DNA from: Nitrospira defluvii
GTDB lineage: Bacteria > Nitrospirota > Nitrospiria > Nitrospirales > Nitrospiraceae
Direction of reading: 5' to 3'
Length of the DNA stretch: 64,000 bases
NCBI GenBank assembly: GCA_000196815.1
Contig: FP929003.1
Location: forward strand, 558,001-622,000
The position numbers and the translations under genes are program-made. This document shows, one piece after another, positions 2,707-5,676 of this stretch (the stretch's first letter is position 1; each line of letters begins with the position of its first letter). The notes under the pieces are model-generated. The model was given only the letters and a program-made list of their open reading frames with translations. It did no database searches and was not told the origin of the DNA.

Positions 2707-4515
2707 CTAGGACGGGGTGAGGGCTTTACGTAGGGCGGCGACGGTGGAGATATCGAGGCCGGCGGAGCGGAGTTCATCGTCGGTGGCGGTGGCGACCCGT
2801 TGGAGGCTGCCGAATTGCTTCAGAAGTCGCTTGCGGCGAATGGTGCCGATGCCGGCGATCTGGTCGAGTTCGGATGAGAGCAAGGCCTTGCCGCGCAACT
2901 TCCGGTGATAGGTCAGGGCGAAGCGATGGGCTTCGTCGCGAATGCGCTGGACCAGGTGGGTGGCGGGGGAGGTCGGCCGCAGGACAATGGGATTTTTCCG
3001 GCCGGGGAGAAAGATCCGTTCGTCTTTCTCGCCACGGGCCTTGGCGAGGCCCATGATCGGAATCTGGTCCTGTCCGACCTGTTTCAAGCCTTCGAGCGCG
3101 GCGCTCAATTGGCCCAGCCCGCCATCAATGAGGATCAGGTCCGGACGGGCGAGATCTTCGGTCGCGCCATACCGCCGCATCACGGCTTCCTGCATACTCG
3201 CAAAGTCGTTGGCTCCCTCCACCGTCTGAATCCTGAATTTGCGATAATCGGATTTCTTGGCCTCCCCGTCTTCCCACACGACCAGCGAGGCCACCGATTG
3301 ATTGCCCATGATGTTCGAAATGTCGAAGCCTTCGATGCGGCGTGGAACTGCGTCGAGGCGAAGCAGGCGTTTGAGTTCAGCCGTCGCCTGCCGATCCAAA
3401 GCCTCATTGCGGAGATGATCGGCAATGGCCGCCGCGGCATTCTCCTCTGCGAGGAGGACCAGTTGATGCTTGGTACCCCGTTCCGGCGCCAGGAGACGCA
3501 CGCTGTCGCCCCGTTTTCCGCTCAGCCACCGTTCGATGAGCGGGGCCTCGTCGAGGGTCGTGGGGAGCAGCAATTCCTTGGGCGGTTGTCCTTCCTTGTT
3601 GTAGAGCTGCTCGATGGCTGAGCGCACGAGTTCCTCGTCGCTTGAATCGGCGGATTGAGGCCAGAAGAAATCCTTACGTCCGATCAACAGGCCTCCGCGC
3701 ACGAACAGGAGCTGGAGATCCGCAGCAGTGCCCTGACGGGCTAATCCGATCACATCCTGGTCGGTCGTGCTGACTTGGGTGATGCGCTGCTTTTCCAACG
3801 TGCGCTCGACGTTAAAGAGGCGATTCCGCAGCCGGGCCGCTTCCTCGAACTCTTCCCGTTCCGCTGCCCGCTCCATGTCCTCGCGCAGGCTGTCCAGCAG
3901 CTCTCGGTCCCGCCCTTCGAGAAACTGGCGAACCTGTTTCACGATCTGGTGGTACTCGTCTCGCGACTGGTTGCCGGTGCAGGGGGCCATGCAGCGTTTG
4001 ATCTCGAACTCGATGCAGGCCCGGTCGGCCCGGCCGTCGATCTCGATTTCGCAGGTGGCCAACGGAAACGCCTTGCGAATGACCTTCAGTGTCTCGCGGA
4101 GCGCCCCGGCCGGAGTGTAAGGACCGTAGTAGAGCGCCCCGTCTTTTTGTACCCGCCGGACGATGGAGAGGCGCGGAAAGTTCTCTTTGATCGGCAGGCG
4201 CAGATAAGGGTACTGCTTGTCGTCACGCAGGACGATATTGAAACGCGGCCGGTGGCGCTTGATCAGATTGCTTTCGAGGATCAGGGCTTCCAGCTCGGAG
4301 CGGGTCACGATGGTTTCGAGGTCGGCGATCTCGTTGACGAGCACGGCGGTCTTCGGCGTCTGGTCGCTGCCTCTCTGGAAGTAGGAGCGGACCCGGTCGG
4401 CCAACACGGCGGCTTTTCCGACATAGAGGATCTCCCGTTTCGCGTTCCGAAACAGGTAGCAGCCCGGTTGACCGGGCAGGTGATCGAGCTTGGATTGGAG
4501 CGCGTCAGTCGTCAT
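2707..4515 (-). CDS. uvrC: UvrABC excinuclease subunit C
   Basis: 602 aa, the usual length for UvrC, which makes the 3' and 5' incisions flanking a lesion in nucleotide excision repair together with UvrA and UvrB. Visible parts in order: N-terminal GIY-YIG nuclease (residues ~14-95, GQPGCYLFRN...ILYVGKA), the Cys-containing middle region (CIEFEIKRCMAPC, ~165), a UVR UvrB-binding helix pair (~200-235, EREEFEEAARLRNRLF), the RNase H-like nuclease (from ~390, FDISNIMGNQSVASLV ... LILIDGGLGQLSAA) and C-terminal helix-hairpin-helix (IAGIGTIRRKRLLKQFGS, ~550-570). The start is ATG 4515. It appears to be a single transcription unit; a repeat element and dapF-like gene lie upstream. Confidence 0.97.
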   Translation of the reverse strand: MTTDALQSKLDHLPGQPGCYLFRNAKREILYVGKAAVLADRVRSYFQRGSDQTPKTAVLVNEIADLETIVTRSELEALILESNLIKRHRPRFNIVLRDDKQYPYLRLPIKENFPRLSIVRRVQKDGALYYGPYTPAGALRETLKVIRKAFPLATCEIEIDGRADRACIEFEIKRCMAPCTGNQSRDEYHQIVKQVRQFLEGRDRELLDSLREDMERAAEREEFEEAARLRNRLFNVERTLEKQRITQVSTTDQDVIGLARQGTAADLQLLFVRGGLLIGRKDFFWPQSADSSDEELVRSAIEQLYNKEGQPPKELLLPTTLDEAPLIERWLSGKRGDSVRLLAPERGTKHQLVLLAEENAAAAIADHLRNEALDRQATAELKRLLRLDAVPRRIEGFDISNIMGNQSVASLVVWEDGEAKKSDYRKFRIQTVEGANDFASMQEAVMRRYGATEDLARPDLILIDGGLGQLSAALEGLKQVGQDQIPIMGLAKARGEKDERIFLPGRKNPIVLRPTSPATHLVQRIRDEAHRFALTYHRKLRGKALLSSELDQIAGIGTIRRKRLLKQFGSLQRVATATDDELRSAGLDISTVAALRKALTPS

Positions 4516-4791: not shown

Positions 4792-5661
4792 TCAGCGCAG
4801 CGTTCGCACAAACGATGGACTCAGAGCGCCTCGGGCGACCTCTGCCACCGGGCCTTTCATCGTTAGGCTGAAGTCCCGGGCGACTTCGATGTTGAGCGTG
4901 CCGCCGGGCATCTTGACCGTGACCGGTCCCTTCACCAGCCCGAGACGGACGGCGGCGCTGGCAGCCGCGCAGGAAGACGATCCGGAGGCCTGCGTTTCTC
5001 CGGCACCGCGTTCCCAGATCAGAATAAAGATTTCTTTGGGGCCGGTGGGCACCGCAAGTTGGACGTTGGTCCGTTTCGGGAAGAGAGGATGGTTTTCGAG
5101 CACAGGCCCCAGTGCGAGGAGCTCTTCCCTCGTCCAGGTTTCGCCGGCTTGTTTGAAAATCACGCAGTGAGGATTGCCGACGCTGACGCCGGTGAATTGC
5201 AGCGCACGTCCGGCGGCTTCGATAGGCTGCTGGATCAGTTCATCGACGGAGAGCGTGCAGGGAAGGGCACTCGGTTGAAACGTCGCCCGGCCCATCTCGA
5301 CCGTGGCGGCAGCGGCATCGCCGTGGCGGTCGATATGGAGGGCAATGGAGACCAAGCCCCCTTTGGTTTCGACGGTGAAGGCTCGTTTTTTGGTTTTGCC
5401 GGTGGCATGCAGGTAGCGGGCGAAGATGCGCAGGCCATTGCCGGATTTTTCCGCCTCGCTGCCGTCAGGATTGTAGATGCGCAGGCCGAAGTCGGCTTTT
5501 TTCGACGGGACCAGCGCCAGGATCCCGTCGCTTCCCAGTCCCCAGTGGCGATCGCAGATGCCGCGGATTTTGCCGGGGGTGAGTGTAAACGTCAGTTCCG
5601 TGGGATCCATCACCACATAGTCGTTGCCGAGTCCGTGTCCGCGGAAAAACCCGTTCTTCAT
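4792..5661 (-). CDS. dapF: DapF-fold epimerase with Ser in place of both catalytic Cys
   Basis: 289 aa, with the full-length two-lobed diaminopimelate epimerase pattern: N-terminal FFRGHGLGNDYVVMDP, DGSEAEKSGNGLR (~residues 67-78), a VGNPHCVIF block (~161-169), PKRTNVQLA (~195-203) and the ERGAGETQASGSSSC block (~217-231). In DAP epimerase, which interconverts LL- and meso-diaminopimelate for lysine and peptidoglycan, the general acid/base pair is two cysteines, in xCGNGxR and ACGTGA. Here the codons are TCC in both places, giving Ser73 and Ser226. The protein may therefore be a weak epimerase, an eliminase/isomerase-like relative, or a variant subfamily using Ser. The family assignment is firm and the exact activity is not; the gene symbol is by homology. 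Confidence 0.75.
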   Translation of the reverse strand: MKNGFFRGHGLGNDYVVMDPTELTFTLTPGKIRGICDRHWGLGSDGILALVPSKKADFGLRIYNPDGSEAEKSGNGLRIFARYLHATGKTKKRAFTVETKGGLVSIALHIDRHGDAAAATVEMGRATFQPSALPCTLSVDELIQQPIEAAGRALQFTGVSVGNPHCVIFKQAGETWTREELLALGPVLENHPLFPKRTNVQLAVPTGPKEIFILIWERGAGETQASGSSSCAAASAAVRLGLVKGPVTVKMPGGTLNIEVARDFSLTMKGPVAEVARGALSPSFVRTLR

Positions 5662-5676
5662 CTGCGTCTCCTTCTC

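Follow-up and report, generated by a model that had tools for sequence, protein, structure and literature searches.

A DapF-like protein of Nitrospira with serine at both catalytic cysteine positions is a candidate Ser/Ser diaminopimelate epimerase

The usual account of cofactor-independent racemases rests on a Cys thiolate/thiol pair, and laboratory replacement of either Cys cripples these enzymes. The advantage of Cys lies in easier loss of its water shell and in a lower pKa (PMC8142540). Turnover of HisR is greatly reduced by C67S and by C209S (PMC11602996), and the ability of Chlamydia DapF to rescue through its glutamate-racemase role is abolished by C72A and by C207A (PMC5885031). In the proline racemase superfamily, Ser/Cys enzymes epimerise and Ser/Thr enzymes dehydrate (PMC4113996). 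Our search of the open-access literature (subscription journals lay outside it) found no Ser/Ser racemase and no natural Ser-type DapF.

Nitrospira is a major nitrite and ammonia oxidiser. We analysed 64,000 nucleotides of the Nitrospira defluvii genome (FP929003.1, positions 558,001 to 622,000; hereafter, the window), the nearest relatives of which are contigs of Nitrospira genomes (92-96% identity). The genome is a single contig of 4.317 Mb and is 99.97% complete. The window carries a dapF-like gene with the following features, in window coordinates:

4792..5661, minus strand: dapF-like gene of the Ser/Ser type, 289 aa (open reading frame; matches to TIGR00652, PF01678 and solved structures)
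5661-5659, minus strand: ATG start codon of the dapF-like gene
5668..5673, minus strand: AAGGAG, the likely ribosome-binding site of the dapF-like gene (read from the sequence)
5443..5445, minus strand: Ser73 codon TCC, in EKSGNGLR, at the catalytic Cys position of the N-terminal domain (SGNG for CGNG)
4984..4986, minus strand: Ser226 codon TCC, in ETQASGSSSC, at the catalytic Cys position of the C-terminal domain (ASGSS for ACGTG)
5446..5448, minus strand: Lys72 codon (clade alignment)
5425..5427, minus strand: Ile79 codon (clade alignment)
5617..5619, minus strand: Tyr15 codon, in GNDY (clade alignment)
2707..4515, minus strand: uvrC-like gene, directly downstream of the dapF-like gene (named by eye from the sequence)

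The protein scores 226.4 bits against the TIGR00652 DapF profile (cut-off 114.65) and 182.3 bits against PF01678 (cut-off 34.7). Its sequence does not match the family of the proline racemase superfamily: PF01678 is its only Pfam match, and identity in structural alignments is 10-17%. Members of the DapF family have two catalytic Cys at helix N-termini (C73/C217 in H. influenzae numbering). Here, both are Ser; HMMER alignments place Ser73 and Ser226 onto the catalytic Cys of the three best solved DapF chains, confirming what the first-pass annotation had read from the two TCC codons. That annotation had also raised the possibility that this is the only dapF of the genome, and so it proved: searches of the whole genome with PF01678 and TIGR00652 returned it as the sole DapF match, with no second canonical dapF. 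The uvrC neighbour recurs beside dapF in another genome (G163, locus L158), indicating that dapF is not in a lysine operon. We found no operon link of the Nitrospira Ser/Ser dapF to lysine genes, and no functional signal from its neighbours: Nitrospira keeps uvrC, and the families f2, f19 and f16 have different neighbours.

The absence of two residues that are both held to be essential could point to a pseudo-enzyme, or to a sequencing or assembly artefact. We consider this hardly credible. Both positions are Ser in 112 of the 112 relatives' loci first read, well past what chance would give, and the genomes of the Ser/Ser group that were read, from four families, agree without exception. Only Ser codons occur at position 73 in 120 distinct sequences (TCC, TCA, TCG, TCT and AGC) and at position 226 in the 119 sequences that reach it (TCC, TCA, TCG and TCT). 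Unless two bases change at once, the path from TCN to AGC leads through Thr or Cys, and only Ser is retained at position 73. Comparisons with relatives as distant as 66% identity give dN/dS ratios of 0.05-0.11. The concordant loci and the codon variation rule out a sequencing error or frameshift, and refute the artefact reading altogether. We conclude that the Ser/Ser DapF is under purifying selection, that it is neither an error nor a decaying gene, and that Ser/Ser is an old, selected trait. At one locus (L157, G171:C22:829919-832133), the Ser/Ser dapF is duplicated in tandem, with both copies intact and both Ser/Ser.

The N. defluvii genome has lysA, dapA and dapB together (named by HMM), a DapL that exceeds the cut-off of TIGR03540 (625.3 bits), and a MurE with the sequence SDNPR, of the DNPR type. 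We take the DNPR motif in MurE to be a mark of meso-DAP use. DapL produces LL-DAP, and the substrate of LysA is meso-DAP (PMC4176475). Hence LysA, and with it MurE, requires either epimerisation of LL-DAP or direct synthesis of meso-DAP. One further gene, in genome coordinates, bears on the second route:

3800590-3801501 (L198:4590-5501), minus strand: type II meso-DAP dehydrogenase homologue, 304-324 aa (matches 8zmx and 3wb9)

The first-pass annotation had held that a sole dapF would leave the LL- to meso-DAP step unexplained. The copy is indeed the only one, but "unexplained" overstates the case here, because the dehydrogenase homologue is a possible direct maker of meso-DAP. It matches 8zmx with an E value of 7.6e-54 and 3wb9 with 7.7e-52, both of which we take to be type II meso-DAP dehydrogenases. 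Its TIGR01921 score of 119.7 bits is under the cut-off of 180.6, so that its substrate is not certain; this profile may have been built mostly on type I members, and the low score does not settle the function of the homologue. The homologue could bypass epimerisation in N. defluvii, judging from these matches, and the DapF-like protein would then be secondary or redundant. We regard this as very improbable. The homologue occurs in only 16 of the 245 Nitrospirota genomes of our phylum sample and in 9 of the 16 genomes of the genus, and with so patchy a distribution it is not a general answer for the Ser/Ser lineage. Moreover, the Ser/Ser DapF is equally strongly constrained in genomes without the homologue, and DapL, the maker of LL-DAP, is retained as well. 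Thirteen single-contig genomes (G065, G153, G226, G019, G084, G115, G121, G123, G163, G178, G184, G220 and G224) each have one DapF, of the Ser/Ser type, and none of the thirteen has a full-length DAP dehydrogenase. LysA is over its cut-off in all 13 and DapL in 12, the DapL of G019 being just under (587 bits against 593). The first-pass annotation had left open whether the protein has another chemistry or is an epimerase using Ser; a sole DapF in closed genomes with DapL and LysA, and with no meso-DAP dehydrogenase, favours the Ser epimerase.

We read residues 73 and 226 in most DapF matches of the 245 genomes. Ser/Ser is found in every full-length protein read from the family of Nitrospira (f1, four genera excepted) and from f2 and f19, and also in f16. 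Ser/Cys is found in five f1 genomes, from genera g3, g6, g8 and g10, and in f7, and the remaining families read are Cys/Cys. In a maximum-likelihood tree computed without columns 73 and 226, the 23 Ser/Ser rows form one side of a branch with 100/100 support, covering four Nitrospirota families and two plasmid paralogues. Multiple origins of Ser/Ser are unneeded given this single branch, within which the exact placement of the long-branched plasmid rows is unsure. No Ser/Ser protein was found in viral contigs.

In genera g3, g6, g8 and g10 the Ser/Ser gene is missing, and a DapF of another lineage takes its place. Within f1, the distribution is thus that of a replacement rather than of an added function; f16 is the exception. 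The other-lineage proteins have Ser73 and Cys226 (L123, L125, L127, L128 and L129 in the four genera; L132-L134 in f7). The Ser/Cys type arose separately, inside that lineage, so that the first catalytic Cys has been lost in nature a second time, independently. In G048 the gene adjoins lysA, directly downstream. Long open frames in the sister genera had raised the idea of a LysA-DapF fusion, which we rejected for G048, where the two are adjacent genes in different frames.

In three genomes of f16, a Ser/Ser DapF coexists with a Cys/Cys one (L151, L152 and L300 with L164, L217 and L218). In G006, from this family, the Cys/Cys gene is near lysA and the Ser/Ser gene follows an rpe-like gene. A canonical dapF elsewhere, which the first-pass annotation would have counted against its reading when joined to a clear other function, is thus absent from the N. 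defluvii genome and present in this related family. Ser/Ser paralogues also occur on plasmids of Streptomyces sp. NBC_01216 (L251 and L255) and Agrobacterium vitis (L256), where they are annotated as diaminopimelate epimerase only. Common to both plasmid clusters are genes for an iron-containing redox enzyme, a 2OG-Fe dioxygenase, the DapF-like protein, a molybdopterin oxidoreductase and an aldo/keto reductase, a set that looks like a conserved biosynthetic cluster. Given the f16 genomes, with their Cys/Cys DapF near lysA, and the plasmid paralogues in biosynthetic clusters, the Ser/Ser branch need not be DAP-specific everywhere.

The f16 pairs and the plasmid clusters would fit an alternative in which the Ser/Ser protein performs other proton chemistry, one-sided or two-sided (elimination, isomerisation, or racemisation of another amino acid), and an unrelated, unrecognised epimerase converts LL- to meso-DAP. 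Also in keeping with it, both Cys are essential in the family members that have been tested, and single Cys-to-Thr changes make dehydratases of proline-racemase relatives (PMC8142540, PMC4113996). We think this alternative unlikely. It requires that at least 13 closed genomes encode a second, wholly unrecognised enzyme, and within the family of Nitrospira the Ser/Ser gene substitutes for the other DapF and does not stand alongside it. A change of substrate would also free the residues that make DAP-specific contacts at the far end of the molecule, and all of these are kept.

We examined the DAP-contacting residues named for the Anabaena DapF structure (PMC12039745), namely Asn13, Asn66, Gly76, Asn77, Asn164, Asn197, Glu215, Arg216, Gly225 and Thr226. 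With the numbering mapped by motif, and not by direct alignment with the Anabaena chain, the Nitrospira protein keeps them as N13, N64, G74, N75, N163, N199, E217, R218 and G227, and has Ser228 for Thr226. Hence, apart from the two Cys, each contacting residue is kept or conservatively replaced. The catalytic His is H147 in Chlamydia DapF (PMC5885031); we equate it with the His of the GNPH motif, H165, which is present in 57 of 57 rows. The first-pass annotation had described the rest of the fold as intact, a view upheld by the fold match described below and extended by the kept contacts to the remainder of the active site.

The Nitrospirota Ser/Ser clade has further marks of its own: Tyr15, Ser44, Pro65, Lys72, Leu77 and Ile79. 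Lys72 is present in 21 of its 21 rows and at most rarely in the 34 Cys/Cys and Ser/Cys rows, where Met, Phe, Gln, Leu and Ala are commonest. All 34 of those rows have a third, non-catalytic Cys at position 79 (CGNGxRC), where the Nitrospira protein has Ile. Tyr15 is invariant in the clade and in the plasmid paralogues, and the other rows mostly have Phe. Lys72, Tyr15 and the loss of Cys79 may compensate for a weaker base, the help from Lys72 and Tyr15 being a guess from conservation only.

An AlphaFold2 model built from 30 sequences (mean pLDDT 77.6, with residues 130-146 poor) has the two-domain DapF fold, and places Ser73 and Ser226 at the N-termini of helices 74-87 and 227-239, like the Cys in DapF. 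The best fold match is a closed, ligand-bound cyanobacterial DAP epimerase, 9mro (TM 0.83/0.86; Z 30.3, rmsd 2.9, 271 residues aligned). An O-ureidoserine racemase and a plant DapF are within 1 Z of 9mro, and the substrate therefore cannot be told from the fold alone.

On comparative grounds, we favour the reading that the Nitrospira protein truly epimerises DAP and does so by a Ser/Ser acid/base pair, and put its probability at roughly 0.68. We infer both its epimerisation of DAP in vivo and the acid/base role of Ser73 and Ser226. Several lines of evidence point this way: its position as sole DapF in a genome with lysA-dapA-dapB, DapL and an SDNPR MurE; the thirteen closed genomes with a sole Ser/Ser DapF, LysA and DapL and no full-length DAP dehydrogenase; the complementary distribution in the four genera with a different DapF; purifying selection with Ser-only codons, from both Ser codon families at position 73; the kept DAP contacts, together with the match to 9mro; and the precedent of Ser/Cys epimerases in the proline racemase superfamily. 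This reading is weakened by the finding that changes of Cys to Ser or Ala cut or abolish activity in known members. Also against it stand the failure of our open-access search to find a Ser/Ser racemase, the f16 pairs, the plasmid paralogues and the missing operon link to lysine genes. As the mechanism, LL-DAP from DapL would sit between the domains in the way it does in ordinary DapF. Its far end would be held by Asn64, Asn163, Asn199, Glu217 and Arg218, its amine by Asn13, and its carboxylate by the backbone of Gly74/Asn75 and Gly227/Ser228 at the two helix N-termini. One Ser would remove the alpha proton, as an alkoxide or via water or a neighbouring residue, and the other would return a proton from the opposite face, giving meso-DAP for LysA and MurE.

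A Ser/Ser branch that has long persisted under strong selection, as the sole DapF beside an otherwise complete DapL-LysA pathway, would allow the two-Cys rule to be tested directly. Either the textbook two-Cys chemistry has an exception, or something else performs the epimerisation step. An active Ser/Ser DapF would mean that the argument from base strength needs revision, and would be expected to escape inhibitors that target thiols (aziridino-DAP, iodoacetamide). An inactive one would imply that Nitrospira has a new enzyme for the LL- to meso-DAP step, still to be discovered. Profile-based annotation labels Ser/Ser proteins DapF and overlooks the missing catalytic residues. Tentatively, and at slightly less than an even chance, we propose that this is a natural amino-acid epimerase in which two serines, aided by no cofactor, invert an unactivated alpha-carbon; cofactor-independent racemases would then be able to do without a thiol/thiolate pair, and a whole nitrite-oxidiser lineage would make its cell-wall and lysine precursor in this way.

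The closest described systems are the solved DapF enzymes of Anabaena (9mro), H. influenzae (1gqz) and E. coli (4ijz), to which the Nitrospira protein is about 34-39% identical. It shares with them the fold over its whole length, the helix N-termini at the catalytic positions, the substrate-contacting Asn, Glu, Arg and Gly, and the pathway setting with DapL and LysA. It differs in its Ser/Ser pair, in Ile at the third Cys, and in Lys72, Tyr15, Pro65 and Ser228. The H. influenzae DapF mutants C73S (2q9h) and C217S (2q9j), both among the fold matches, likewise have Ser at one position. However, theirs are single engineered changes, chosen for slowing catalysis (PMC12039745), whereas the Nitrospira protein has both, natural and long-standing.

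Enzymes of the same fold that naturally have Ser where a catalytic Cys would stand include 4-hydroxyproline epimerase (4lb0, Ser/Cys) and trans-3-hydroxyproline dehydratase (4k7g, Ser/Thr) (PMC4113996). These act on different substrates; the 4lb0 epimerase retains one Cys, and the Cys-less 4k7g is a dehydratase and no epimerase. The Ser/Cys DapF of the sister Nitrospiraceae genera (G048 and others) shares Ser73, separately arisen, but retains Cys226 and belongs to a different DapF lineage, at about 28% identity. The histidine racemases HisR and CntK and the O-ureidoserine racemase DcsC (7vdy) have the DapF fold and, unlike the Nitrospira protein, are Cys/Cys enzymes with other substrates, the identity to CntK being far lower (17-18%).
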